From Bacteroidia bacterium (GTDB lineage: Bacteria > Bacteroidota > Bacteroidia > NS11-12g > UBA9320), in NCBI GenBank assembly GCA_029253325.1, contig JAQWZS010000230.1, positions 1 to 32,728 of the forward strand: DNA of 32,728 nucleotides, given 5' to 3'. Within the stretch, counting starts at the first letter, position 1. Every line of letters begins with the position of its first letter. Below are positions 2,614 to 18,542 of the stretch, piece after piece. Both the position numbers and the translations under genes were made by a program. The notes beneath the pieces were generated by a model. The model did not search any database and was not told the origin of the DNA. It saw only the letters and a list, made by a program, of their open reading frames with translations.

Positions 2614-5556
2614 ATGCTTCCTAGAAAATACACGTGGATATTTGTGTTGGCTGTTCATTTATGTTTAGGGCAACAACCATCTAATGCGTTGAGTTTTGAC
2701 TATCTATCAATTAAAAATGGACTTTCTCACAATACAGTATTTTCCCTTTTACAGGATCGATATGGTTATATTTGGATAGGTACTCAAAATGGTTTGAATA
2801 AGTACGATGGATATACTTGTAAGCTTTATCCGCTAGATGAATCAATTAGCAATAATCAAAATTATTCAGGAGAACAAGTATCTGCACTTTTTGAAGATAA
2901 AAAAGGTAACTTATGGGTAGGTACAAAAAATAATGGTATTAAAATAAAAAGCGTATCGAGTGATCGTTTTATTAGATTAAGGTATGATTCACTTTCAATA
3001 CCATTTGAAAGTTCAGAGATTTCATCATTTTATGAGGATGATCTAGGTTTAATTTGGATTACGACTATCGGCTCAGGCCTGATAAAGTACGATGTAAGTC
3101 AACAAAAAATTTCTGTCTTTAATACGCAAAATAGTCATATATCAAGTGATGTTGTATTTGATATTGTTAAAGATAAAAATGGCATGATATGGATAGCTAC
3201 TGCAGGTGGTGGTTTAAATTGTCTGAAAGAAGATGGACAGTTTGAAAGAAGTCACGAAATGCTTCCCAATAGTCCAAATATGGTTGGATTTCGTAAAAAA
3301 TTGCTTTTAGACGATGATTTTCTATGGGTAGGAACTGAAGGTTCTGGTCTCTATAAAATGAATATAAAGAATAGAAGTTATATTCATTTTTCTTCACTTA
3401 AAGGTGAGAATAGAATCAACTCTGAAGCTGTCATTGATTTGTTTAAGTCTAATGATGATCAAATTTATATTGCTACTGATGGTGAAGGTCTGAATGTTTT
3501 TGACATTCAGACTTCGAAAATGTATTCATACACTCAACAAACGAATTCTTTTGCTTCATTAAATAGCAATTCATTACGATGCTTTTTAGGCGACAGAACA
3601 GGAAATATATGGATTGGTACATTTAATGGTGGAGTCAACATATATAAACCTAGCAAAATACGATTTGATTACAATTTACCAGAGTCGGTTGATGAAAGAT
3701 TACCTGCACGTTCTATCTTGTCTGTTTTACAAACTCAAAATGGTCAAGCTCTAGTGGGTACAGATGGAAGTGGTTTGTATGAATTTAATAATCAGAAATT
3801 TAATACAAAACCATTCATTCATAATTCAGGTAATAAGAATTCTATAGGCGGTAATAAGGTTAAAACTTTATTTCAAGATAGTCAAGGCAATATTTGGTTG
3901 GGTTTTTTTGCAGGTGGATTGGATTTGTATGATATTAAAAGCAAAAAATTCAGACATTTTATGGATTGGAAACCAAATGTTTGGAGTATTACGGAGCTTA
4001 AAAATACCCAAGAACTTTTAATCGCAACTTTAGGTGATGGATTGTTTACATTAAATATCAACTCAAAAAAACTGGAGAGATATCTTCCTCAATCAAATAA
4101 GTTGAATTCTTTTTCAGATTTTAATATAACAACCGTTCATGAGGATAAAATAGGTCGATTATGGGTTGGTTCATTAGATAATGGATTAGATTTAATTGAT
4201 GAATCAAATCAAGTGTATGAGCATTTTAAATACATCTCTGAAGATTCATTTTCATTAAGTCATAATGCAATCCAAACTATATATGAAGACTCAGATGGTG
4301 AGATTTGGTTTGGAACAGATGGAGGTGGAATAAATAGATGGCTGGGGAATAATAAGTTTGAGCGAATCAATAAATCTAGTGGTTTGATTGATAATCATGT
4401 GATGAGCATGATAGAAGGTAAGAGTAATAATTTATGGATTTCAACTTTTCAAGGGGTCTGTCGTTATAATAAAAATGATAGAGATTTCTTGAATTTTAGC
4501 ATTAGATCATTTCAAAACACTAATCAATTCAATCAAAATTCAATATCCATTGATGATTATGGTAAACTCTATTTTGGAGGCATTTATGGCATGCATTCTC
4601 TTCACCCCAACCAACTTAATGATAGAATTACTGAGAATATCCATCAACTGATTTTCTCAGATTTAGAAGTTTTTGGCAAAAATATTCCCGTAGGTAAATT
4701 CGAGTCCAACAGACAAATTTTAGAAAAGCCTATTGAGAATAGTAGCGATGTATGGTTGAATTATGCCGATAAATCATTCACCATTTATTTCAAAGCAATA
4801 GATTATTTAAACCCCACGGGTGATTATCTTTTTAAAATGCAAGGGTTTAATGATAATTGGAGAATTATAACAGCAGGAGACCCGAGTGTAACCTATACTA
4901 ATTTGGATCCCGGTCATTACGTTTTTAATGTTAAATACAACGAAAAAATATCATCTATAAAGATTCACATTGCACCCCCATATTGGCAAACTATATGGTT
5001 TAAATTGCTCGTCTTCATATTTGGCCTTGGTTTGATTTCCTTCATATTATTGTTTTGGGTTAAAAGGAGGGAGGCGTCAGCAAAACGCATAATTCTTCAA
5101 TTACAAAATGATAAACTAGCAACAGAAGTAGAATCTAAAAATTCAAAGCTTGTTTTTTCTTCTGCTCAAATGGCCCATAAGAATGAGTTGCTGATTGAGT
5201 TGAAACAAAATCTAATCGACTACGAGAAGAAACCAGATGGGAATTTAAAGTCACTTTTTCGAAAGCTAGACTATGAACTAAAAAATGAAAATTATTGGAA
5301 TGAGTTTAATTTATATTTTAATGAATTTAATCATAATTTTTTAAATTTAATTACTATAGCTCATCCATCAATCACTAAAAATGATCTTAGACTCTGCTCA
5401 TTAATTAGAATGAATTTGAGCTCCAAAGAAATTGCATCATTATTAAATATTTCGCTTAGAGCAGTAGAACAGGGACGTTATCGACTTAAAAAAAGATTTG
5501 GTATTGATAAATCTGTAGATTTGGCTGACTATATTAAATCGTTCAATAACGCATAA
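2614..5556 (+). CDS. Transmembrane beta-propeller sensor with C-terminal LuxR-like HTH (PUL regulator)
   Basis: This 980-residue protein starts with a signal peptide (ends near LCLGQ). About fourteen two-component-regulator propeller repeats follow (for example GYIWIGTQNGLNKYDG, GNLWVGTKNNG, GEIWFGTDGGG). A Y_Y_Y immunoglobulin-like domain lies near 710-790 (KMQGFNDNW, LDPGHYVFNVKYNE), then one membrane helix (LLVFIFGLGLISFILLFWV), a coiled coil, and a C-terminal helix-turn-helix at about 935-963 (LSSKEIASLLNISLRAVEQG). The periplasmic part matches that of hybrid two-component systems (HTCS) that sense glycan fragments, but no histidine kinase, ATPase or receiver domain is present, so sensing and DNA binding are in one membrane-bound chain. 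Its place directly upstream of susC suggests it controls the downstream operon (inference). Target DNA and ligand are unknown. Confidence 0.9.
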   Translation: MLPRKYTWIFVLAVHLCLGQQPSNALSFDYLSIKNGLSHNTVFSLLQDRYGYIWIGTQNGLNKYDGYTCKLYPLDESISNNQNYSGEQVSALFEDKKGNLWVGTKNNGIKIKSVSSDRFIRLRYDSLSIPFESSEISSFYEDDLGLIWITTIGSGLIKYDVSQQKISVFNTQNSHISSDVVFDIVKDKNGMIWIATAGGGLNCLKEDGQFERSHEMLPNSPNMVGFRKKLLLDDDFLWVGTEGSGLYKMNIKNRSYIHFSSLKGENRINSEAVIDLFKSNDDQIYIATDGEGLNVFDIQTSKMYSYTQQTNSFASLNSNSLRCFLGDRTGNIWIGTFNGGVNIYKPSKIRFDYNLPESVDERLPARSILSVLQTQNGQALVGTDGSGLYEFNNQKFNTKPFIHNSGNKNSIGGNKVKTLFQDSQGNIWLGFFAGGLDLYDIKSKKFRHFMDWKPNVWSITELKNTQELLIATLGDGLFTLNINSKKLERYLPQSNKLNSFSDFNITTVHEDKIGRLWVGSLDNGLDLIDESNQVYEHFKYISEDSFSLSHNAIQTIYEDSDGEIWFGTDGGGINRWLGNNKFERINKSSGLIDNHVMSMIEGKSNNLWISTFQGVCRYNKNDRDFLNFSIRSFQNTNQFNQNSISIDDYGKLYFGGIYGMHSLHPNQLNDRITENIHQLIFSDLEVFGKNIPVGKFESNRQILEKPIENSSDVWLNYADKSFTIYFKAIDYLNPTGDYLFKMQGFNDNWRIITAGDPSVTYTNLDPGHYVFNVKYNEKISSIKIHIAPPYWQTIWFKLLVFIFGLGLISFILLFWVKRREASAKRIILQLQNDKLATEVESKNSKLVFSSAQMAHKNELLIELKQNLIDYEKKPDGNLKSLFRKLDYELKNENYWNEFNLYFNEFNHNFLNLITIAHPSITKNDLRLCSLIRMNLSSKEIASLLNISLRAVEQGRYRLKKRFGIDKSVDLADYIKSFNNA

Positions 5557-5677: not shown

Positions 5678-8600
5678 ATGCATAGATTATTATTTTTTGC
5701 AATTATCATACTCACAAGTTCTATTTTAATCAATGCTCAAGTAAGTGTGGGTGGAACAATTTCGGATGCATCCTCAGGAGAGAGACTTATTGGGGTCACC
5801 ATTTTAGAACAAGGTACAACTAATGGTGCCATCACAGATAAAAATGGTCAGTATAATATTTCATTGATATCAGATACAGCCTCTCTGCAATTTTTATATG
5901 TAGGTTATACCCCTCAAATCATAAAAGTAGGTAATCAAGTAGTTGTGAATATAGCTATGAAATTTGCAGAGTTTTTAGATGAAGCGGTGGTCATAGGGTA
6001 TGGTGAACAATCAAAATCAAAAATAACATCTGCTGTTTCGACGATTGATGCTAAAACTTTAAAAAAATTACCTGTACCAACTGTAAGTAACGGACTAGAA
6101 GGTCTTGCTTCGGGTTTATTTGTTCGTCAAGGAAGCGGTGAACCTGGATTTAGTGGTTCTTCTTTCGAGATCAGAAATTTTGGTAATGCTCTAGTTATTG
6201 TTGATGGATCTCCCGGTAATATTGATGATTTAGATCCCAACGAAATTGAAAATATATCCATATTAAAAGATGCAGCTGCAGCTGCTGTATATGGTGTTCA
6301 GGGTGGTAATGGTGTTATTTTGATAACAACTCGAAAAGGATCCATTGGAAAACCAGAATTAAACTACTCTAACCAATTTACCCAAACCTCATTTACACAA
6401 TATCCAGATTTTTTAAATTCTGTAGATTATGCTATCTTGCTTAACGAGGGTCTTGTTAATGATGGTAAATCTCCTTTTTATACTTCTGACGAGATTGAGT
6501 TATTTAGGTCAGGCTCTGATCCCATTAATTATCCTAATGAAAACTGGAAAGAGTTGATGTTTAAAAAGTATGGTTTTCAACAACGCCATAATTTAAACAT
6601 ATCAGGAGGTAATCAAAAAATAAAATATTTTGCCTCAGCTGGATTCTTAAATCAAGGATCAAATTACAAGGAGGATGTATTAAACTATAATCAATACAAT
6701 TTAAGAACAAATTTGAATGCTTACGTGAATGATTATCTCACGTTACAATTAAATTTAGCTGGCCGGAGAAGACTTAATGAAGCACCTGGCTACTCTGTCT
6801 ATGATATCTTTAGAGAGCTTAGTAGGGCACTGCCAAACAACCTCGCCTATTATCCAGATGGTACACCAGCTCGACCAAGTTTTAGTCCCAATCATATTTT
6901 AGAGGGTTTGCGTGATTTTAATGCGGGATATTTTCGTTCGAGAAATAATAATACTGATGCCAAACTTTCATTAGAATGGGATGCAGCTCAGGTAGGTATT
7001 GATGGATTAAAATTCAAATCATATGCATCGCTGGTTAATAATGTTTATTATAATAAAACTTGGGGCAAAAGTTATGAACTGTATACATTGAATCGTTTAA
7101 CTGGAGATTATGATGAGTATGTTGCTAGTCCAGAAGGTTCATTCAGTGAAACTGTCTTGACACATAGTATGAATTATAGCAATCATTATGTGTTGCAAGA
7201 GTCTGTTAACTATGATCGAAAGTTCAAAAAACACAGTATTTCGGCATTGTTACTGGGAGAATTACAAAATAATCAAGGAGAGAATTTTTATGGGAGAAGA
7301 CAAGATTACCAGTCGGATTTGATTGATCAATTATTTGCTGGTTCTAACGAAAATAAAGATGCCAATGGTGGAGAATATCGTGAAAATAGACTCGGTTTAG
7401 TGGGAAGAGCTAGCTACGATTATCTTTCTAGATATTTTGTTGAATCATCATTTAGATATGATGGATCCTCCAAATTTTCCCCTGACAATCAATGGGGTTT
7501 TTTCCCATCTATCTCAGCGGGTTGGAGAATATCCGAGGAAGATTTTTTCAAAGATTTCAAAGAAAAAATCCCACAACTTAAATTACGAGCATCTTTAGGA
7601 ACTGCAGGATATGACGGTACAGCAGCTTACCAATGGCTATCTGGGTTTACTTACAACCATTTCTTTGCTATTAACGAAACAGCTATTCCAACCATTGACA
7701 ATACATCGTTAGCTAATGAAGATTTAACATGGGAAACTGTAACTACACATGATGTGGGATTAGATGCTGAGTTTTTTAATCGAGAGCTAAAATTTTCTAT
7801 TGATTATTTTAAAAGGTATAAAAAGGGTGTGTTAGCATATGCTTCAGGTAGCGTTCCAAATACCTTGGGTGTTGGTTTAGCTGCTCAAAATTTACATGAA
7901 TATTCTAATGAAGGTTTTGAAACCTCTTTGAATTTTAATAAAAAATTGAATAGTAATTGGACCATCGGAGCGTTTAGTAATTTTTCTTATTCAAGAGAAA
8001 CAATCGAGTTTATAGATGAAGCTGTTATTGAAGATGATTTTATGAGAGGTAATTTGATGGTTACAGGTGGATTTACCAATCTCCGTAGAGGATATATTTC
8101 TGATGGATTATTCCAATCTCAAGATGAAATCGATGGAAGTCCTGTTCAAGATAACAATGACAATTCTACCCTTCAACCAGGTGATGTTAGGTATATAGAC
8201 TTAAATAATGATGGTGTTATTGATGTAAAAGACCAAAAAGTATTTGGTAATGGCGATAAGCCAGCTTATAATTTTTCATTAAATATATCTGCCCAATACA
8301 AAAATTTTGCACTCTCTGTGCTACTTACAGGTGCTGCAGGATATGATATTTATTTAGATGGAGAGGCTCAAAGTCCACTTCGAAATGGATTCAATGGCTA
8401 CACATATCAATTGGATTATTGGACACCTGAAAATACAGATGCAACATATCCTAGAATTTCAGATGGTGGTTTTAATGATAATAATTTCAGGTATTCAGAT
8501 TTTTGGAAACGAAGTGGTAATCATCTGAGATTTAAAAATATTAATTTAAGCTATACCTTACCGAAATTTGGTAAAAATAATGGCGGTTTTAAAGAGATTA

Positions 8601-8737
8601 GATTTTTTGCAACAGCCTACAATCTATTTGTTATTAAAACTTATGATGAAGACTTTGATCCTCAAATGCAATCATCAACAGGATGGTACTATCCTCAAAA
8701 TAAATCAACCACATTTGGTATCAATCTTACGCTATAA
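5678..8737 (+). CDS. susC: SusC-type TonB-dependent outer-membrane glycan transporter
   Basis: The 1019-residue protein has a signal peptide (ending ILINAQ), a carboxypeptidase-regulatory-like domain at about 22-105 (GGTISDASSGERLIGVTI), a TonB-interaction and plug segment (DEAVVIGYGEQSKSKITSAV, then FEIRNFGNALVIVDG and ISILKDAAAAAVYGVQGGNG), and a long beta-barrel to the C-terminus. These are the defining features of SusC transporters, which pair with a SusD lipoprotein lid to import oligosaccharides across the outer membrane using TonB/ExbBD energy. The susD gene follows after 11 bases. The ATG at 5678 gives a good signal peptide. The 121 bases upstream contain no clear consensus promoter but do contain a short direct repeat (see findings). 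The substrate is inferred from the GH genes to be a beta-glucan oligosaccharide. Confidence 0.95.
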   Translation: MHRLLFFAIIILTSSILINAQVSVGGTISDASSGERLIGVTILEQGTTNGAITDKNGQYNISLISDTASLQFLYVGYTPQIIKVGNQVVVNIAMKFAEFLDEAVVIGYGEQSKSKITSAVSTIDAKTLKKLPVPTVSNGLEGLASGLFVRQGSGEPGFSGSSFEIRNFGNALVIVDGSPGNIDDLDPNEIENISILKDAAAAAVYGVQGGNGVILITTRKGSIGKPELNYSNQFTQTSFTQYPDFLNSVDYAILLNEGLVNDGKSPFYTSDEIELFRSGSDPINYPNENWKELMFKKYGFQQRHNLNISGGNQKIKYFASAGFLNQGSNYKEDVLNYNQYNLRTNLNAYVNDYLTLQLNLAGRRRLNEAPGYSVYDIFRELSRALPNNLAYYPDGTPARPSFSPNHILEGLRDFNAGYFRSRNNNTDAKLSLEWDAAQVGIDGLKFKSYASLVNNVYYNKTWGKSYELYTLNRLTGDYDEYVASPEGSFSETVLTHSMNYSNHYVLQESVNYDRKFKKHSISALLLGELQNNQGENFYGRRQDYQSDLIDQLFAGSNENKDANGGEYRENRLGLVGRASYDYLSRYFVESSFRYDGSSKFSPDNQWGFFPSISAGWRISEEDFFKDFKEKIPQLKLRASLGTAGYDGTAAYQWLSGFTYNHFFAINETAIPTIDNTSLANEDLTWETVTTHDVGLDAEFFNRELKFSIDYFKRYKKGVLAYASGSVPNTLGVGLAAQNLHEYSNEGFETSLNFNKKLNSNWTIGAFSNFSYSRETIEFIDEAVIEDDFMRGNLMVTGGFTNLRRGYISDGLFQSQDEIDGSPVQDNNDNSTLQPGDVRYIDLNNDGVIDVKDQKVFGNGDKPAYNFSLNISAQYKNFALSVLLTGAAGYDIYLDGEAQSPLRNGFNGYTYQLDYWTPENTDATYPRISDGGFNDNNFRYSDFWKRSGNHLRFKNINLSYTLPKFGKNNGGFKEIRFFATAYNLFVIKTYDEDFDPQMQSSTGWYYPQNKSTTFGINLTL

Positions 8738-8748
8738 ATAAATTTAAA

Positions 8749-10521
8749 ATGAAACGCAACTTACTATTTATAATACTTTTAGTTTCAGTGATTAGTTCTT
8801 GTAAGAAAGAATTTTTGAATCAACCACCACTAGACCGAATTACAGAATCGGATGTTTGGAGTGATCGTGATTTGATGGATACCTACATATTCAAAATATA
8901 CGATAACATGCCTTGGGATTATTTGAAAGATTTTGGCGGTGGTGCTGGTTATGGAGCTCATCGAGATGCCTTAACTGATCTAGCTATGAGTACATACTCA
9001 TGGACACCAGCATACAATACTATTCGACCAGGGAATTGGGGTACATCAACCAATTATTGGCCATTAGATTGGTGGGGATATTACAATATCTGGAAAATTA
9101 ATTATTCCATTGAAAATATTGAACCATTAGGTGAGGATGTAATATCAAAAACAGAGAAAGATAATCGTCTAGGTGAATTATATTTTTTGAGAGCCTATTG
9201 CTATTTTGCTATGGCTAAACGTTACGGTGGTGTGCCTATCATACTGGAAACACAAGATCCAGATAATACCCCTGAAGATGAGTATTTTCCATTCAGAGAT
9301 TCTGAGGAAGCTGTTTATGATCAGGTCATTAAGGATGTCCAATTAGCATTTGATTTTTTACCAGATCGATGGTCTAGCCAAAAGGGTAGAGCTGGGAAAT
9401 GGGCTGCAAAAGCTCTTGAGTCCAGAGCTGCACTTTATGCAGCAACGATTGCAAAATATGGTACAGTTCAATTAAATGGTGTCGTTGGTATTCCGTCGGG
9501 TAAGGCATCTCAATATTTCCAGATTTCATTGGATGCTTCCAAAAAAATAATTAATGAAGGTGGATATGTACTTTTTAATCAATATCCTGATCCAGCTGAA
9601 AATTATAGTAGATTGTTTACTGATGAAACAGAAGATGAAACTATTTTCATGAAAGTATGGCTACCATATGATAAAGGACATTCGTATGATTTAAGAAATT
9701 CACCTTACAGTTATCGAGTTGATTGGGGCTCAAGTATGTCACCAACCAAAGGATTGATGGATAGTTACGAAATGTTAAATTCTGGTTTACTTCCCCGTGA
9801 GCCAAATTCTGGTTATGATCCTGACAACCCATTTGATAATCGTGATCCAAGGTTTAAGGGGACTTTACTAACGAACAATGACATCTTTCAGGGATCTCCT
9901 ATTCAAACTTGGTATGCTACTGTCAGAAATGGTGAGATTGATTACAATGCTGGTACTGGAGTAGGGAAGGATGGAATGGGTGTTCATCCTGATGCTTCAA
10001 AAACAGGTGTTTATGTTAGAAAATATCTTGCAGATGGATCTAGTCCGTTACTTATTCAACAATATTATTCAGGTCAAGATTGTATATTATTTAGATTAGG
10101 TGAGATATACTTAAATGCTGCTGAAGCTGCAATTGAACTTGGTTTGGATGGTGAAGCAAGATCTTTTATAGAACCAATTCGTATTAGAGCTGGATTGAAG
10201 CAAAATCTAGATTTTGGAACTTATTCAGGAACTGATCTTATGAACAGAATTAGAAATGAGAGAAAAATAGAGTTAGCTTTTGAAGATCATAGATATTGGG
10301 ATGTCAGAAGGTGGAGAACAGCAGAGGTTGATTTAAGTGTCATGACACAAGGGATAACATCTTTAAGATATTTGGACAATTTTGGAAACGAAACATTCAC
10401 ATATGAAATCATTGAACCAGAGCCACAAAAAACGAATTTCTTTTCAAGACATTATTACATACCAATAGGTCAAGACAGAAGAAATAATAACCCCAAACTA
10501 GTTGAAAATCCAGGTTACTAA
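8749..10521 (+). CDS. susD: SusD-type glycan-binding surface lipoprotein
   Basis: The 590-residue product has a lipoprotein signal with Cys at residue 18 (VISSC|KKEFLNQPP). The mature start, the LDRITESDVW segment, the TPR-like helices (LGELYFLRAYCYFAMAKRYGGVP) and the C-terminal block with IRNERKIELAFEDHRYWDVRRW are all classic for the RagB/SusD family. SusD proteins form the hinged lid over SusC and bind the incoming glycan. The gene lies 11 bases after susC and 12 bases before the PKD lipoprotein gene, so it is within the same operon. The length is usual for the family and no disruption is seen. Confidence 0.95.
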   Translation: MKRNLLFIILLVSVISSCKKEFLNQPPLDRITESDVWSDRDLMDTYIFKIYDNMPWDYLKDFGGGAGYGAHRDALTDLAMSTYSWTPAYNTIRPGNWGTSTNYWPLDWWGYYNIWKINYSIENIEPLGEDVISKTEKDNRLGELYFLRAYCYFAMAKRYGGVPIILETQDPDNTPEDEYFPFRDSEEAVYDQVIKDVQLAFDFLPDRWSSQKGRAGKWAAKALESRAALYAATIAKYGTVQLNGVVGIPSGKASQYFQISLDASKKIINEGGYVLFNQYPDPAENYSRLFTDETEDETIFMKVWLPYDKGHSYDLRNSPYSYRVDWGSSMSPTKGLMDSYEMLNSGLLPREPNSGYDPDNPFDNRDPRFKGTLLTNNDIFQGSPIQTWYATVRNGEIDYNAGTGVGKDGMGVHPDASKTGVYVRKYLADGSSPLLIQQYYSGQDCILFRLGEIYLNAAEAAIELGLDGEARSFIEPIRIRAGLKQNLDFGTYSGTDLMNRIRNERKIELAFEDHRYWDVRRWRTAEVDLSVMTQGITSLRYLDNFGNETFTYEIIEPEPQKTNFFSRHYYIPIGQDRRNNNPKLVENPGY

Positions 10522-10533
10522 TTATTATATACC

Positions 10534-11361
10534 ATGAAATTTAAAAGATACACAGTTTACATATTACCATTAATAATAACCTTTATGGGATGTATTGAAG
10601 ATAATGACAAATTAAGTGTTACTCCTGCCAATAGTGATGCAAAATTTACTTATTCCTTAGATCCTGACAATCCTAATTTATTAACATTCAAGAGTTCGCC
10701 AAGTGTTGAAACATGGTATTCTCATTGGAACTTTGGAGATAATACATCAGCTGAGGGATTAGAAGTGCAAAAAACATTTTACCTAAAAGGAGAATATGAT
10801 GTAAAATTTAAAATATTCACCGAAGGTGGAACAGCAGAATCTACTCAAACAATAGTTATTGATAATGACTTAACAGGATCTAATTTGGTCAGTAATGGTA
10901 AGATGGACAATGATTCCTCTTGGTCTTTATTATCAATTTCTCCAGGTGTTGATATCACATTTCAAGATGGAAAAGCAACATGGAGTGGCGGTGGTTGGGG
11001 ACAAACAGGAATATATCAACAATTTAACGTTGAGGCAAATAAGACTTATCAAATACAAATGGATGTTACTGGTAGCGGAATGACAGACTGTTGGTTTGAG
11101 GTATTTATTGGATCTACAACACCCTCTGATGGAGTTGATTACACAGATGGTGGAATACGATTGGGATTGAATACGTGGGATGGGTGTGGTAGTGAACCGT
11201 TCGACGGACCATTAACAAGTTTATCCTGTAGCGTTGGTGGTGGGGATGGTTCTTTTGAATTTGATGAAGATAAAAATGTTTATATTGTCATAAGAAGTGG
11301 CGGTGCTAATTTGGGTACTTCTGGCGTTTCAATTGATAATGTGACTGTGCAAGTATTGTAA
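10534..11361 (+). CDS. PKD-domain surface lipoprotein with C-terminal CBM-like beta-sandwich, SusE position
   Basis: The 275-residue protein begins with a lipoprotein signal (ITFMGC, Cys at residue 20). A PKD fold follows at roughly 30-115, recognised by WYSHWNFGDNTSAEG and FYLKGEYDVKFKIF. The remainder (about 118-275) begins NLVSNGKMDNDSSW and ends VSIDNVTVQVL, a pattern typical of carbohydrate-binding jelly-roll modules related to CBM4/9. It sits directly after susD, where SusE/SusF or surface glycan-binding proteins are usually encoded. PKD lipoproteins at this position are known from laminarin PULs of marine Bacteroidota (family knowledge). I infer a cell-surface glucan-binding role. No catalytic residues are recognisable. 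Confidence 0.8.
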   Translation: MKFKRYTVYILPLIITFMGCIEDNDKLSVTPANSDAKFTYSLDPDNPNLLTFKSSPSVETWYSHWNFGDNTSAEGLEVQKTFYLKGEYDVKFKIFTEGGTAESTQTIVIDNDLTGSNLVSNGKMDNDSSWSLLSISPGVDITFQDGKATWSGGGWGQTGIYQQFNVEANKTYQIQMDVTGSGMTDCWFEVFIGSTTPSDGVDYTDGGIRLGLNTWDGCGSEPFDGPLTSLSCSVGGGDGSFEFDEDKNVYIVIRSGGANLGTSGVSIDNVTVQVL

Positions 11362-11381: not shown

Positions 11382-12419
11382 ATGAAAAGAATAATAAAAA
11401 CATTATGCATATCAATTCTATCGGTATCATCTGTTATTGCTCAGGTGAATATTACTTTTGAGTTGAATACATCAACACTTTCCAGCATTAGCCCAGAAGG
11501 CTTATTTATAGCTGGTGGAAATGGATTTGGGTTACCTGGAGATAATAGGCTATCAGATTTAGATGGTGATGGTGTATATACTATTACACTTCAAAAAGAA
11601 AGGGGCTTTTCGAGCTTTTTTATCTTTCTTAATGGAAACTGTAGTGTTTGGTCATGTAAAGAAAAATTAGCTGGCTTACCTTGTTCAGATTCTGAAAATT
11701 TTGATGATCGTTTCTTACCTCCAGTTATGTCTGATACGATAATAAAAGCTTGCTATAGTACATGTGATAATGATGGAAGCTGCACAATTATTACTGATTC
11801 TGTTGATCTTACATTTGAATTGAATACTGCTGAAATTGAAGTTGATCCGGGAGGATTATTTTTAGCGGGAGGTAGTGGTTTTGGTGTTGCTGGAGATTAT
11901 CCCATGATTGATCCAGAAGATGATGGCATTTATACTGTAACTGTAAGACGTGCCAAAGGATTTTTTAGTTATTATACTTTTCTTAATGGAAATTGTGGGG
12001 ATTGGTCATGTAAGGAAAATATCGAAGGTCAATCATGTGCTTATCCCGATGCATTTAATGATCGATTTATCCCTTCGGTTAAGGGTGATACAATAATCAA
12101 AACTTGTTTTGCTAAATGTACCAGTGATGGCTTGTGTATGATAGCAAATATTGGGCAACTAAAAATGGATAATGAATTATTTAATATTCGACCTACTTTG
12201 GTTAATGACTATATCAATGTAAGCTTTGATAATCATTATATATCGTTAGATAAAAAGATAAAAGTTGTTAATTACTCAGGTAAGATTTTTGAATCTTTGA
12301 TGTCAACGAATCAAGTTAAATTATCATTAAACACGATAGCTTATCCAAGTGGTGTTTATTTCATTACAATTCAAACTAATAATAAAATCCTAACACAGAA
12401 ATTTATTGTTCAGAAATAA
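11382..12419 (+). CDS. Secreted protein with two tandem Cys-rich repeats and T9SS sorting domain
   Basis: After a signal peptide (ending SVIAQ) the 345-residue protein has two consecutive homologous modules of about 112 residues (22-134 and 141-252). Each begins with (V)xxTFELNT, has a GDGVYTIT or DDGIYTVT strand, an FLNGNC-WSCKE segment and a DDRF/NDRF segment. Each carries six cysteines in matching positions, fitting three disulfides. The last ~80 residues (NIRPTLVNDYINVSF, PSGVYFITIQTNNK) are a type A T9SS sorting domain, so the protein is surface-attached or released. The module resembles small beta-sandwich domains attached to GH16 enzymes in Bacteroidota, but I do not recognise a named family. 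It is encoded between the PKD lipoprotein and the GH5 enzyme, so a glucan-binding role is the simplest inference. No enzyme motif is seen. Confidence 0.82.
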   Translation: MKRIIKTLCISILSVSSVIAQVNITFELNTSTLSSISPEGLFIAGGNGFGLPGDNRLSDLDGDGVYTITLQKERGFSSFFIFLNGNCSVWSCKEKLAGLPCSDSENFDDRFLPPVMSDTIIKACYSTCDNDGSCTIITDSVDLTFELNTAEIEVDPGGLFLAGGSGFGVAGDYPMIDPEDDGIYTVTVRRAKGFFSYYTFLNGNCGDWSCKENIEGQSCAYPDAFNDRFIPSVKGDTIIKTCFAKCTSDGLCMIANIGQLKMDNELFNIRPTLVNDYINVSFDNHYISLDKKIKVVNYSGKIFESLMSTNQVKLSLNTIAYPSGVYFITIQTNNKILTQKFIVQK

Positions 12420-12420
12420 A

Positions 12421-15162
12421 ATGATATATATAAAAATTAAGAAATATTTATTGCAAACTAGTCTGTTTTTCTTTATTTCATTGGGTGCCAATGCCCAACA
12501 TTTTTTGAGTACAAAAGGAAAAGCCATTGTTAATGAAAACCAAGATACCATTCTCCTGAGAGGTATGGGACTCGGTGGATGGATGGTCAAAGAAGGCTAC
12601 ATGATACAAACGAATGGTTTTGCAAATGCTCAATATGAGATAATGGATGCTATAGAAGATCTTATTGGTAAACAAAATACAGATACTTTCAATAATTTAT
12701 GGTTAACAAACCATGTTACAAAGATTGATATTGATTCACTAAAATCTTGGGGATTCAACTCTGTGCGTGTACCCATGCACTATAATTTATTTACATTACC
12801 TGTAGAAGAGGAACCCATAGAAGGACAACAAACATGGCTGACTATAGGATTCGAATTGTTAGATAGTCTTATTGATTGGTGTGAAGAAAAGGAAATGTAT
12901 GTTATTTTAGATTTACATGCAGCTCCAGGTGGACAAGGGAAAGATGCTGCTATATCAGATTATAACCCAACGAAACCATCTTTATGGGAAAGCAAGGATA
13001 ATAGAGATAAGATGGTTGCATTATGGAGAAAAATTGCTCAAAGATATGCTGATGAACAGTGGGTTGCCGGTTATGATTTATTAAATGAAACTAACTGGGA
13101 CCTTCCTGGCGGGGTTGCAATTAAAAATTTATACAAAGAAATTACAGATAGCATTCGTAGAGTTGATCAAAAACACATAATCTTTATCGAAGGGAATTGG
13201 TTTGCTAATGATTTTACTGGGTTGACACCCCCTTGGGATATTAACTTAGTTTATTCTCCACACAAGTACTGGTCGTTCAATGATCAATCATCTATAGGGA
13301 GTTTCCTAGAAATAAAAAACAAGTATAACGTACCTCTGTATCTTGGAGAAACAGGTGAAAATTCCAATGAGTGGTTTCAAAGTGCTGTCAAATTATATGA
13401 GGATAATAATATTGGGTGGGCGTGGTGGCCATTAAAAAAGATAGAATCTGTTGCAGGACCTGTATCTATCAATAAAAGTGAGGGTTATCAAATACTTTTG
13501 GATTACTGGAATAATGGGGGATCAAAGCCCTCTGTTGAATTTTCTAAAAAGGTATTGTTCCAATTAACTGAGGACTTGAAAATTGAAAATTGTCGATATC
13601 AAAAAGACGTAACTGATGCCTTGTTTAGACAGCCTTTTACTGATGAAACCATCCCCTTTTCAATACATACGATTCCAGGTATGGTATATGCACCCGATTA
13701 CGATCTGGGTAAAGCAGGTATGGCTTACGGTGATTTCGATGAAGCTAACTACTCTGTTTCAACTGGAGAATATACTGCTTGGAACAACGGATGGGCGTAT
13801 CGAAATGATGGTGTAGATATAGAAAAATGTGAAGATTTATCCAGTAACGGGTTTTCTATTGGTTTTTTAAATAGCGACGAATGGACTCAGTATGAAGTTA
13901 ATATTGAATCCGATGGGGTCTATGATTTAAATGTAAGAACAGCATCAGGAGGTTCAGGAGGCCGTATGTATTTTACTATGGATAATCAAAGTATTACAGA
14001 GTCTAAATTTGTTTACCCCTCTGGTGGTTGGCAAAAATGGGAAACTACTACTATTTCTGACATAATCTTAAACCAAGGAAATCATAAACTGAGATTTTAT
14101 GTTGATCGAGCGGGTTTTAATGTCAATAGTTTTGAATTCATAAAAAGTTCAATAAGTATAAATGATTTGACTACAAAATATCTAACTGCTGAAACATCAG
14201 ACGAGTATAATATTCAAATGAATATCAATAAGGATTTATCTTTTGATGATAAAATTAATTTAAATGATTTTCAAATTTCTGTGAACGGTTCTATCATTCC
14301 GGTAAGATCAGCATTTGTGGATCCGAATAATTCTAAAATTATTAATTTCAATCTAAACCAAATCCTTATTTATTCAGATATTATTAAAATTTCATACTCT
14401 GGAAATCAACTTAAAGCTACTGATGGGTCTGATCTTGAAGTATTTTCTTTAAAAAATGTCAGAAATACTCTGAGTTTTGTTTACCAAATACCAACAAAGA
14501 TTGAATCAGAAGACTTTACCTATCAAGAGGGTGTTGAGTTAGAAGAAACCTCAGATGTTGGCGGTGGAATGAATGTTGGGTACCTCGACCCAAATGATTA
14601 CCTTGATTATGAAATAAACGTAACTTCCTCTGGGGAGTATCAAATTAACTTTAGAACTGCTGCTCAGTTTGGAATAGGTTCGTTGAAATTACAATTTATA
14701 GATACGGCAGGTGTTTTATCACAAATTAGTAACCCTGTATTTTCATCAACTGGGGATTGGCAAAATTGGAAAACAACCAGTGAAGTAGTTCAATTAGATG
14801 CTGGTAGGTATACTATGAGGATTCTGATTACACAATCTCCTTTCAATTTAAATTGGGTCGAGTTCATAGCAAAATCTTTAAGTACACAAGATAAAATTAC
14901 TCAATCAAAATCTGTTTCATTATTTCCTAATCCGTGCAAGAATTTATTTAATATCCAATTTATCTCAGATCATATACAAGATATTAATTTATTTATTTGT
15001 GATTTTAGCGGTAAGATAATAGCTTCCAAAGACTGTTCAAAAACATTATATCTTGACGAACAAATTTCGTTAAGAGATTACCCCGTAGGAATATATCTTA
15101 TAAAATTGAGATTAGAGAATGGTTCTATATGTACAAAAAGATTAATTAAAACAAACCCATAA
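12421..15162 (+). CDS. T9SS-secreted GH5 glycosidase with two CBM6 modules
   Basis: The start is ATG 12421, one base after the previous stop; the track's TTG at 12406 lies inside the upstream gene. The 913-residue protein has a signal peptide ending ANAQ. Its GH5 barrel (about 30-375) shows GMGLGGWMVKEGY, FNSVRVPMHY, VILDLHAAPGG, acid/base Glu223 in YDLLNETNW and nucleophile Glu310 in YLGETGEN. A CBM6 follows (GFLNSDEWTQYEVNIESDGV), then a SwmB/SbsA-like Ig segment (LTAETSDEYNIQMNINK), a second CBM6 (VGYLDPNDYLDYEINV) and a type A T9SS sorting domain (SVSLFPNPCKNLFNIQF). GH5 enzymes are retaining beta-glycosidases; the PUL context suggests an endo- or exo-beta-glucanase. I cannot assign the subfamily by eye. 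Confidence 0.9.
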   Translation: MIYIKIKKYLLQTSLFFFISLGANAQHFLSTKGKAIVNENQDTILLRGMGLGGWMVKEGYMIQTNGFANAQYEIMDAIEDLIGKQNTDTFNNLWLTNHVTKIDIDSLKSWGFNSVRVPMHYNLFTLPVEEEPIEGQQTWLTIGFELLDSLIDWCEEKEMYVILDLHAAPGGQGKDAAISDYNPTKPSLWESKDNRDKMVALWRKIAQRYADEQWVAGYDLLNETNWDLPGGVAIKNLYKEITDSIRRVDQKHIIFIEGNWFANDFTGLTPPWDINLVYSPHKYWSFNDQSSIGSFLEIKNKYNVPLYLGETGENSNEWFQSAVKLYEDNNIGWAWWPLKKIESVAGPVSINKSEGYQILLDYWNNGGSKPSVEFSKKVLFQLTEDLKIENCRYQKDVTDALFRQPFTDETIPFSIHTIPGMVYAPDYDLGKAGMAYGDFDEANYSVSTGEYTAWNNGWAYRNDGVDIEKCEDLSSNGFSIGFLNSDEWTQYEVNIESDGVYDLNVRTASGGSGGRMYFTMDNQSITESKFVYPSGGWQKWETTTISDIILNQGNHKLRFYVDRAGFNVNSFEFIKSSISINDLTTKYLTAETSDEYNIQMNINKDLSFDDKINLNDFQISVNGSIIPVRSAFVDPNNSKIINFNLNQILIYSDIIKISYSGNQLKATDGSDLEVFSLKNVRNTLSFVYQIPTKIESEDFTYQEGVELEETSDVGGGMNVGYLDPNDYLDYEINVTSSGEYQINFRTAAQFGIGSLKLQFIDTAGVLSQISNPVFSSTGDWQNWKTTSEVVQLDAGRYTMRILITQSPFNLNWVEFIAKSLSTQDKITQSKSVSLFPNPCKNLFNIQFISDHIQDINLFICDFSGKIIASKDCSKTLYLDEQISLRDYPVGIYLIKLRLENGSICTKRLIKTNP

Positions 15163-15183: not shown

Positions 15184-17040
15184 ATGAATCGTTTGAATTA
15201 TAATGCAAAGTTAGTTTGGTTATGTTTTTTTACCATTCTATTGATGTTTTCTAACCTGTTGATAGGGAAAAATAAACATCCTTTTCAGATTCCTATTTAT
15301 GATAAGTTTCAAGTTGATTCATCAGCTTCTTATGAAGTACAGATTAATCAAATAATAAGTCTCATGTCTCTTGATGAAAAGATTGGTCAAATGACACAGG
15401 TTCGACATTTTGACGATATCAATTCAAATGATGTTACTGATAAATTTATTGGCTCTGTAATTCACACACAAGGCCCTTCACCTGGAGAGGGAGCAATGGG
15501 CTGGCAGGGAAAGTTTAAGAGACTTCAAAGTAAGGCATTGGAGACAAGATTAGGTATTCCTTTATTATTTGCAGTCGATGCCATCCATGGACAGAACACA
15601 TATAATGGTGCGACTATATTCCCACATAATATCGGAATGGGAGCAACCCATAATCCAAGGTTGATTGAAAAATCAGCAGCGATAACTGCTCTTGAAACCC
15701 AAGCTACAGGATTTAATTGGACGTTTTCTCCTTGCATAGCCATTCCATATAATGAAAAATGGGGTCGTGTTTATGAAGCGTATTCAGAAAGTACTGATTT
15801 GACCTCAAAGCTTGTGAGTGCATCTATAAGAGGATATCAAGGTGATTTGTCAGCACCACATACTGTTATGGCCACAGCAAAGCACTTTATTGGTGATGGT
15901 TCAACGGATTACGGAAAAGAGGGTGGCGAAATATCTCTAACCATGCAAGAGATCAGTCAACGATTGTTACCACCATACAAACAAGCAGTAAAAGAAGGAG
16001 TTGGTTCGATCATGGTTTCTTTTTCGTCATTGTCTGGTATACCCTTACATGCTCACAAAGAGTTAATTATGGATACGCTCAAGGATGCTATGGGTTTTGA
16101 TGGTATTGTTGTATCTGATTGGAAAGGGTATTCACGTTTTGGTAAAAATGAGATTATTAATGCAGGTGTCGATTTAATAATGGCTGTAGATGGCGACTTA
16201 AATATATTTCAATCAGGGCTAAAAAGTGCCGTCAAAAGTGGACAGGTTAATCAAAGTAGAATTAATGATGCTGTTAGACGTATTTTAAGGCAAAAATTTA
16301 GGCTAGGTTTATTTCAAAACCCTTTCCCAGATCCTAGTCTAGTATCACATATTGGTAAATCTTCCCATCGATTAATCGCAAAACAAGCCGTTAGGGAATC
16401 CCTTGTTTTACTAAAACATCAAGGTAATGTGTTACCAATTAAAAAAGATTGTAAAAAAATTGTTGTAGTAGGCGAGCATGCTGATAATGTGGGTTTGCAA
16501 TCGGGTGGTTGGACACTCGCTTGGCAAGGAGTTAGTGAAAATTATTCAAGAGCAACATCTATTCTAGAGGGTATCCAAAAAGTAGCAAAGGGACAGGTGG
16601 TTTACGATCCATATGCTCAATACAATCATTCTGATGCTGATGTCATTATCGTTGTTGTTGGAGAAACACCCTATGCTGAATTTATGGGAGATATTACTAA
16701 TGGGGAAAATAAACACCAACTAACGTTATCAAAAAAACACCAGGCCTATGTCAGTTCTTCTGTTAATAGTGAATCGAAGGTAATTACCATTTTAATTTCT
16801 GGTAGGCCCTTAATTGTATCTCAGCAGATTGAACAATCAGATGCATTTATTGCCGCATGGCTTCCAGGTTCTGAAGGGGATGGAGTTGCTGAGGTGTTAT
16901 TTGGTGAATATAATTTTACGGGGAAACTTCCTCATTCATGGCCTAAATCATTTGCAAACTTTGAGGGTAAATACGGACCTAATTTTTGGGATGAATCCAA
17001 TATTCCACTTTTTAAATATGGCTATGGTCTTCAATATTAA
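15184..17040 (+). CDS. GH3 beta-glucosidase / exo-beta-glucanase
   Basis: The 618-residue protein has an N-terminal hydrophobic export signal (LVWLCFFTILLMFSNLL) and a two-domain GH3 body. The nucleophile is Asp312 in GIVVSDWKGY. The conserved KHFIGDGST and GRVYEAYSE segments that line the glucose subsite are intact. Glu499 in VVGETPYAEFMGD matches the acid/base position of barley ExoI-like enzymes, so this belongs to the exo-1,3/1,4-glucanase branch rather than the long beta-xylosidase type; it has no fibronectin-III tail. It releases glucose from non-reducing ends. It has no lipobox and no sorting domain, so it is probably periplasmic. Its start is 21 bases after the GH5 stop. Confidence 0.92.
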   Translation: MNRLNYNAKLVWLCFFTILLMFSNLLIGKNKHPFQIPIYDKFQVDSSASYEVQINQIISLMSLDEKIGQMTQVRHFDDINSNDVTDKFIGSVIHTQGPSPGEGAMGWQGKFKRLQSKALETRLGIPLLFAVDAIHGQNTYNGATIFPHNIGMGATHNPRLIEKSAAITALETQATGFNWTFSPCIAIPYNEKWGRVYEAYSESTDLTSKLVSASIRGYQGDLSAPHTVMATAKHFIGDGSTDYGKEGGEISLTMQEISQRLLPPYKQAVKEGVGSIMVSFSSLSGIPLHAHKELIMDTLKDAMGFDGIVVSDWKGYSRFGKNEIINAGVDLIMAVDGDLNIFQSGLKSAVKSGQVNQSRINDAVRRILRQKFRLGLFQNPFPDPSLVSHIGKSSHRLIAKQAVRESLVLLKHQGNVLPIKKDCKKIVVVGEHADNVGLQSGGWTLAWQGVSENYSRATSILEGIQKVAKGQVVYDPYAQYNHSDADVIIVVVGETPYAEFMGDITNGENKHQLTLSKKHQAYVSSSVNSESKVITILISGRPLIVSQQIEQSDAFIAAWLPGSEGDGVAEVLFGEYNFTGKLPHSWPKSFANFEGKYGPNFWDESNIPLFKYGYGLQY

Positions 17041-17075: not shown

Positions 17076-18542
17076 ATGAATCATAATACTTTCAGTCTCA
17101 TATTACTTCTAATGGTATGTGGGATTATAACTGTCGATACTTTTGGACAATCTCAAGTTCAATCAAATTTTGTAAAAAATACAGATACTGTATTGGTCTA
17201 TTCGACTGCAAAAGATACAGATTTAAAGTTATCACTAGTCTCTAAACCTACTTTCAAACTAGCAAACCAACCTTTGGAAACAGAGGTGTCCATTTTTGTA
17301 AATCCTAACAAAACCTTTCAAACCTTTTTCGGTATAGGTGGGGCTATTACTGATGCTTCTTCAGAGGTTTTTGCGTGCTTACCCAAGTCTAAACAAGAAG
17401 AATTTTTAAAAGCATATTTTAGTGTTGATGATGGCATTGGTTATTCATTGGCTCGAACTCATATTCACAGTTGTGATTTTAGTAGAGAGAGTTATACCTA
17501 TGTGTCAGATAAAGATAAATTTTTAAAAACCTTTACTATTGACCATGACAAGAAATACCGTATTCCATTAATCAAGCGAGCTATAGCAATGGCTAATGGT
17601 CAATTGCCATTGTATGTAAGCCCTTGGAGTCCACCATCATTTATGAAGAGTAACAACAGTATGCTTCGTGGAGGTAAGTTATTGCCAGAGTATCGAGATG
17701 CTTGGGCTTTGTACTACGCTAAATTCATTAAAGCATACGAAAAAGAGAATGTTCCGATATGGGGGCTGACCATTCAAAACGAACCTATGGCTACGCAACG
17801 TTGGGAATCTTGTATTTACACCGCTGAGGAAGAAAGAGACTTTTTGAAAAATAATTTGGGACCTACACTAGAAAAAGAGGGATTAGGTGACAAAAAAATC
17901 ATTGTTTGGGACCATAATCGAGATTTGATTGTCAATCGTGCAAACACAATTTTTGATGATCCTGAAGCATCAAAATATGCTTGGGGTATCGGATTTCATT
18001 GGTATGAAACTTGGACAGGTGGAGATCCCATGTTTTCCAATTTAGGCAATGTCAATGAGTCTTATCCATCGAAAAATCTAGTATTTACTGAAGGATGCAA
18101 TGAGGGGTTTGATTCATCTAAGTATCAGTATTGGCCAAATGCTGAACGCTATGGTCGTTCGATGATTAATGATTTTAATAATGGGACAGTTGCTTGGACA
18201 GATTGGAACATACTTTTAGATGAAACTGGTGGACCAAATCATGTAATGAATTTATGTTTTGCTCCGATACATGCCAATACCCAAACAGGTGATTTAATCT
18301 ATACACCTAGTTACTATTATATCGGTCACTTTTCTAAATTTATCAGACCTGGAGCTAAACGAATGAGTACAGTATCTAGTAGAAGCATATTAGAAGCAAC
18401 TTCTTTTGTACATGATGATGGTCAAATGGTTACCGTGGTAATGAATCCTAAGGATGAAAAAATCAGATATCACTTGTACATAGATTCTATGTCAATATCA
18501 TCAGAGATATTGCCCCATTCAATGCAGACCATAGTGTATTAA
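17076..18542 (+). CDS. GH30 beta-glucanase / beta-glucosidase
   Basis: The 488-residue protein carries a signal peptide (ending TFGQ) and a GH30 (beta/alpha)8 domain with side beta-sandwich, complete in length. Family motifs are FFGIGGAITDASSEV, LYVSPWSPPSFMK, acid/base Glu236 in LTIQNEPMATQRWE and nucleophile Glu339 in LVFTEGCNEGF. The C-terminal strands (MVTVVMNPKDEKIRYHLYI) finish the side domain. GH30 members in this clade cut beta-1,6- or beta-1,3-linked glucose; GH30 with GH3 is a recurrent pairing in laminarin and pustulan loci (family knowledge). The exact subfamily (GH30_1 or GH30_3) is not decidable by eye. It is the last gene of the PUL and converges on rmuC with 11 bases between stops; no clear terminator lies in that gap. 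Confidence 0.92.
   Translation: MNHNTFSLILLLMVCGIITVDTFGQSQVQSNFVKNTDTVLVYSTAKDTDLKLSLVSKPTFKLANQPLETEVSIFVNPNKTFQTFFGIGGAITDASSEVFACLPKSKQEEFLKAYFSVDDGIGYSLARTHIHSCDFSRESYTYVSDKDKFLKTFTIDHDKKYRIPLIKRAIAMANGQLPLYVSPWSPPSFMKSNNSMLRGGKLLPEYRDAWALYYAKFIKAYEKENVPIWGLTIQNEPMATQRWESCIYTAEEERDFLKNNLGPTLEKEGLGDKKIIVWDHNRDLIVNRANTIFDDPEASKYAWGIGFHWYETWTGGDPMFSNLGNVNESYPSKNLVFTEGCNEGFDSSKYQYWPNAERYGRSMINDFNNGTVAWTDWNILLDETGGPNHVMNLCFAPIHANTQTGDLIYTPSYYYIGHFSKFIRPGAKRMSTVSSRSILEATSFVHDDGQMVTVVMNPKDEKIRYHLYIDSMSISSEILPHSMQTIVY

Follow-up and report, generated by a model that had tools for sequence, protein, structure and literature searches.

Architecture of the tandem-module protein

Why should a polysaccharide operon code, between its lipoproteins and its enzymes, for a small exported protein made of two copies of a cysteine-rich module? 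This is the question raised by the gene located at 11382..12419 of a stretch of 32,728 nucleotides from a Bacteroidia bacterium (hereafter the window, meaning the whole stretch analyzed). A previous sequence-only reading had proposed a new glycan-binding module, forming a multivalent glucan-binding protein of the cell surface.

The ORF (plus strand, 345 aa) codes for a signal peptide, two modules that we call type A and, at the C-terminus, a sorting domain of T9SS type A. The signal peptide (11382..11441, +) is of type I, with a cleavage site read from the translation at MKRIIKTLCISILSVSSVIA/Q and an N-terminus that is kept in the orthologues (consensus MK...AQ). No lipobox, as a lipoprotein anchor would have, was found at the cleavage site. 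Module 1 (11442..11792, +) contains Cys 87, 92, 101, 124, 128 and 134, and module 2 (11799..12146, +) Cys 205, 210, 219, 242, 246 and 252. The sorting domain (12150..12416, +; PF18962, E 1.8e-9; TIGR04183, E 2.8e-10) was the sole library match of the protein and no catalytic domain appeared, as had been anticipated. Export by T9SS, also claimed beforehand, is backed by these two matches and by the presence in the same genome of SprA (in two contig pieces) and of a T9SS (PorU-type) sortase above the cut-off. The modules had been said to make up nearly all of the mature protein; this is correct if the sorting domain (~86 residues) is excluded. Such domains are normally removed by T9SS.

The match between the two repeats was fully borne out. 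Residues 21-139 and 140-258 share 58 identities over 120 columns (48% identical), and the alignment score of 337 lies ~53 SD above that of shuffled sequences (13.4 +/- 6.1, maximum 49, n=1000). Each module has six cysteines at the same positions together with the segments FLNGNC-xx-WSCKE and (N/D)DRF. The proposed length of 112 residues was slightly off, since the start-to-start spacing is 119 residues, with a profile core of 108-109 (~117 including the sixth cysteine). At the DNA level no repeats above chance were found, so the duplication of the modules is old. Orthologous modules of a sister species are 87-88% identical, and the two modules within one protein ~50%. Between sister genomes dN/dS was ~0.05-0.10 for the modules and ~0.15-0.23 for the tail (Nei-Gojobori; approximate values, with synonymous sites near saturation), so purifying selection on the modules is strong. 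A search of a phage collection with the protein gave no match. The model of the whole protein (pLDDT 75, pTM 0.40) is too weak to place the two modules relative to each other.

The operon around the gene

As the sequence-only reading had stated, the gene lies within a CAZyme operon, which is compact and located on one strand (+). It starts with a regulator (2614..5556) made of a Reg_prop propeller, Y_Y_Y and a LuxR/GerE-type HTH; the HTH is C-terminal, and a weak match to the PorZ model is due to the propeller. Then come a SusC/RagA TonB-linked transporter (5678..8737; TIGR04056, E 1.3e-254), a SusD-family glycan-binding lipoprotein (8749..10521; PF07980, E 8.6e-50) and a PKD-domain lipoprotein (10534..11361; PF18911, E 5.4e-9), the probable first surface glycan-binding protein. 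By eye, the part of this lipoprotein after the PKD domain has a CBM4-type look; Pfam gives PKD only. Downstream of the tandem-module gene are found a GH5 enzyme carrying two CBM6/35 domains along with a T9SS tail (12421..15162), a GH3 of the exo-beta-glucosidase type (15184..17040; its closest PDB chains being the beta-glucosidase 5m6g and the barley beta-glucan exohydrolase) and a GH30 enzyme (17076..18542; PF02055, E 1.1e-72). Only 20 bp separate the tandem-module gene from the PKD gene. The GH5 gene was called from a TTG at 12406, and its likely start, the ATG at 12421, is one base past the stop codon of the tandem-module gene. A promoter scan gave a number of sites at chance level and does not support an internal promoter.

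The enzymes of the operon are all of beta-glucan types. Among PDB sequences, AaBglC is the closest to the GH5, and the GH30 is nearest to the glucosylceramidase group. The parts of a 1,6-beta-glucan PUL of the BT3309-BT3314 type (SusCD, GH30, GH3 and a binding protein) are all found in the window, but against its best NCBIfam model, the endo-1,6-beta-glucanase BT3312, the GH30 scores only 234.6 bits, far under the cut-off of 700. There is no GH16 in the PUL, and two GH16 genes are located on other contigs of the genome. A sister genome (L019/L108) carries this operon as well, but there the GH3 gene that separates GH5 from GH30 is missing.

Two module types and a starch-binding fold

Neither module of the window matched Pfam, even at E<=10. 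We searched for relatives with one scan of genome contigs, which provided 57 loci, and a profile was then built in successive rounds. Two subtypes were distinguished, type A with the SCKE motif (48 non-redundant modules) and type B with the pattern FNGW...EYKF...DGW...NR (80 modules). In many proteins they alternate, for example as ABAB, ABBB or BAB. The hosts are uncultured and mostly marine Bacteroidota (Flavobacteriales, Saprospiraceae and Crocinitomicaceae), plus one Neomarinimicrobiota MAG. Type A is uncommon; at E<=1e-20 it was detected in five of 395 genomes of the class, the one of the window included, and in four of 104 genomes of the order, all in a single genus. We found no published description of the type A family in the open-access literature.

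The stand-alone pair of modules described beforehand holds for the window and not for the family, in which proteins carry from 1 to 12 modules and eight have a single type A module fused to a CotH-kinase domain. These eight (L032, L041, L042, L043, L049, L055, L056 and L059) have ~850 residues, with the module N-terminal to the kinase domain, and belong to marine Flavobacteriales, outside PULs. The longest array seen, with 12 modules in 1735 residues, is L054:9467-14671. Small proteins of the same genus end in a single type B module (G000:C180, that is L002:1-369; L010:1198-2115; L011:991-1773); one relative matches SnoaL_2, and that of L010 resembles a lipoprotein. The supposed likeness to accessory domains of GH16 enzymes was verified in one case only, and for type B, located N-terminal to a GH16 (L051:14733-15884). 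There, in the Neomarinimicrobiota MAG, a nine-module protein adjoins the GH16 enzyme (L051:9869-15884). This occurrence outside Bacteroidota is possibly a horizontal transfer or a binning error. Kazal-domain matches, in six relatives only, probably come from cysteine-rich linkers and were set aside.

The type A profile gave no significant match against PDB sequences. The best was the BP39L lectin (E 0.5; 0.075 with phmmer), which we discarded as a chance match because only a short G-F-G stretch of the propeller blades is involved. The relationship appears through type B. The profiles of both types align over the whole module (Prob 99.3, E 7e-21), and type B matches the AMPK beta-1 glycogen-binding domain with E 1.4e-5 and also AMPK1_CBM, CBM_48 and X25 directly. 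Among the 128 modules, 61 match AMPK1_CBM and 41 CBM_48, and a few match PF16411 weakly. The direct profile match to the superfamily is thus that of sister type B, with type A linked through this intermediate. The AlphaFold model of a type A module (module 2, pLDDT 93.7) has the fold of a starch-binding module. Its top Foldseek match is the CBM20 of STBD1 with maltotetraose (E 8.3e-4, prob 1.00, TM 0.57/0.66). Starch-binding or CBM48 domains (CBM20, CBM25, CBM41, CGTase starch-binding domains, CBM48) account for almost all of the first 50 matches, with moderate TM-scores (0.5-0.6). Because the match between A and B profiles, that of type B to AMPK and the AlphaFold/Foldseek result coincide, the predicted fold is a firm assignment, and type A reads as a divergent, unmodelled branch of the CBM48/AMPK-GBD/CBM20 superfamily. 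The CBM20/48-like fold suspected from the start is in this way confirmed by profile and model, and the novelty claimed for the module is real as regards an unmodelled and divergent sequence, not as regards the fold or the superfamily.

A predicted site different from that of alpha-glucan binders

We compared the residues W100, K126, W133 and N150 of AMPK, which we take to be the contacts with alpha-glucans and which were the four alignable positions. By alignment, not by structure, type B keeps the equivalents of all four and type A only that of W133, with W100 replaced by G, K126 by T (I in module 1 of the window) and N150 by D. At the sequence level this loss fits a change of specificity. 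Type A has in addition the cysteines C66 and C71, both missing in three of the 48 modules and never singly. Their joint loss suggests that a disulfide specific to type A bridges the hairpin bearing the tryptophan. This residue, W69, is a tryptophan in 44/48 modules and otherwise F or Y, and K72, E73, D88 and R89 are invariant in all 48. Judging from these residues, the predicted site looks like one re-tooled more than decayed.

Recurrence beside beta-glucan genes

The survey of neighbours gave the association with CAZyme genes that had been foreseen. Of the 61 loci where type A is clearly present, at least 34 have SusC, at least 35 have GH16, GH5, GH30 or GH3, and at least 30 have both. These are lower bounds, with many contigs cut, and any percentages are rough given that the survey was seeded with the protein of the window and many contigs are short. 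Pfam identified 23 GH16 among 109 PUL neighbours. Loci fetched by an HMM-based genome search, and not by a peptide pattern, agree, with GH16 in L104, GH16 and SusCD in L106 and SusCD in L107. Long arrays (L029, L034, L035, L054 and L064) are distant from PULs, and type A is also present in other loci without a PUL.

Proposed function and alternatives

We consider that the tandem-module protein is probably a T9SS-exported, surface-attached and non-catalytic beta-glucan-binding protein that keeps the polysaccharide within reach of the GH5 enzyme and SusCD. What the analysis established is the architecture, the fold relationship, the operon, the recurrent beta-glucan PUL context and the purifying selection; glycan binding, beta-glucan specificity, attachment to the surface and a bivalent action (avidity) are what we infer. 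The protein would be made together with the SusC/SusD importer, the PKD lipoprotein, the GH5-CBM6 endo-enzyme, GH3 and GH30. At the cell surface its two CBM48/CBM20-like beta-sandwich modules, each presumably locked by disulfides, would bind one and the same chain of beta-1,3/1,6-glucan, of the laminarin or pustulan-like kind, at two points. With the chain kept close to SusCD and the GH5 enzyme, the local concentration of substrate would rise, much as it does for starch with SusE/SusF. More tentatively, and with slightly less than an even chance in our judgement, type A would be a CBM family not yet described, whose starch-binding fold has been rebuilt for beta-1,3/1,6-glucan (equivalents of W100, K126 and N150 lost, a new disulfide-closed WSCKE hairpin). 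It would form a class of T9SS-exported, stand-alone, multivalent surface binders that uncultured marine Bacteroidota encode in their beta-glucan PULs.

The relatives of type A by fold and profile are almost all alpha-glucan binders, and it is conceivable, if unlikely, that the modules retain an ancestral binding to alpha-glucans (starch- or glycogen-like, algal or self-made), with the beta-glucan operon serving mixed algal storage glucans. GH13 genes do exist on other contigs of the genome, and L006 and L007, with type B only, adjoin a GH13 cyclomaltodextrinase-like gene. However, with the GH13 proteins of the genome itself and that of L006 as queries, not one of the 61 loci clearly carrying type A had a neighbouring GH13 (two extra matches were the module proteins themselves). 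The loss of three contact equivalents in type A and the enzymes of the operon, for beta-glucan only, also speak against alpha-glucans. The fold is not in itself proof of binding, because the CBM48 domains of the D. mossii CE1 esterases bound none of the glycans tested (PMC8040265). This is the main reason for caution, and it would suit modules that bind no glycan and act as structural or protein-binding Ig-like spacers joining the GH5 enzyme, SusCD or the surface layer.

Such spacers would also agree with the eight CotH-kinase fusions and with the long arrays outside PULs (L054, L029, L064). We deem them improbable in view of the strong recurrence beside SusCD and GH16/GH3/GH5 and of the conservation of W69, K72, E73, D88 and R89, which looks beyond the need of a spacer, although the invariant charged positions may be structural. 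The T9SS targeting, the copy number of 1 to 12 and the homologues outside PULs could equally be those of a general adhesin, fixing cells to algal or fungal surfaces and not involved in import. This we regard as very unlikely, since the window and its relatives have the gene closely packed into a SusCD operon (20 bp to the PKD gene, ~1 bp to GH5), and it is because of this packing that we argue for a role in uptake. The SusD and PKD lipoproteins of the same operon could do the binding instead.

Laminarin and related beta-glucans are major marine carbon currencies. A recurrent, multivalent, T9SS-exported binder in the operons for their uptake would, if true, add a missing surface component and indicate that a starch-binding beta-sandwich can be re-tooled for beta-glucan. 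There is also a practical side. Automated annotation leaves the type A modules of the window blank, and the models that catch type B modules label them as glycogen/starch, which may mislead the prediction of PUL substrates.

Comparison with known systems

SusE and SusF of B. thetaiotaomicron are non-catalytic proteins of the outer surface, with tandem modules of starch-binding fold and coded in a SusCD operon. The tandem-module protein, with its predicted place on the surface, resembles them in all these respects. It differs in its T9SS sorting domain, where SusE and SusF have a lipid anchor, in its six-cysteine modules and in an operon for beta-glucan instead of starch. It is most likely SusE/F-like in role, not in lineage. 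Like the surface glycan-binding proteins of PULs in general it is non-catalytic and adjacent to SusC/SusD, but it has a type I signal peptide and a T9SS tail. Among them, BT3313 of the B. thetaiotaomicron 1,6-beta-glucan PUL is a binding-only surface protein whose affinity for this glycan is ~10-fold above that of the SusD homologue (PMC5481569). Both are non-catalytic proteins of a PUL with SusCD, GH30 and GH3; BT3313 is however a lipoprotein with DUF5016 Ig-like domains (PMC5481569), and ours is T9SS cargo. By position, the likelier counterpart of BT3313 is the PKD lipoprotein of the window (10534-11361), and the tandem-module protein would be an extra binder.

PULs with GH5-CBM6 and GH30 have been predicted as laminarin/beta-glucan PULs (PMC6298971, PMC6794258). 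The window shares GH5-CBM6, GH30, GH3 and SusCD with variants C/D of the laminarin PULs known from marine Flavobacteriia (PMC6298971) and with the GH5_46-CBM6 variant (PMC6794258), which carry GH16 within the PUL, unlike the window; the excerpts of these papers that we used do not mention a tandem-module protein. CBM92 modules are multivalent binders of beta-1,6/1,3-glucan, often in T9SS-exported proteins (PMC11039641). They are beta-trefoils with three sites per module (PMC11039641), unrelated to the type A beta-sandwich. That beta-sandwich is the starch-binding fold common to CBM48 (PF02922), the AMPK beta glycogen-binding domain (PF16561) and CBM20 (PF00686), from which type A differs by its own six-cysteine pattern, the extra C66-C71 pair and the loss of three of the four aligned alpha-glucan contacts. 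The fold is thus a known one, and the new element is an unmodelled subfamily that occurs in beta-glucan PULs as a T9SS protein on its own.
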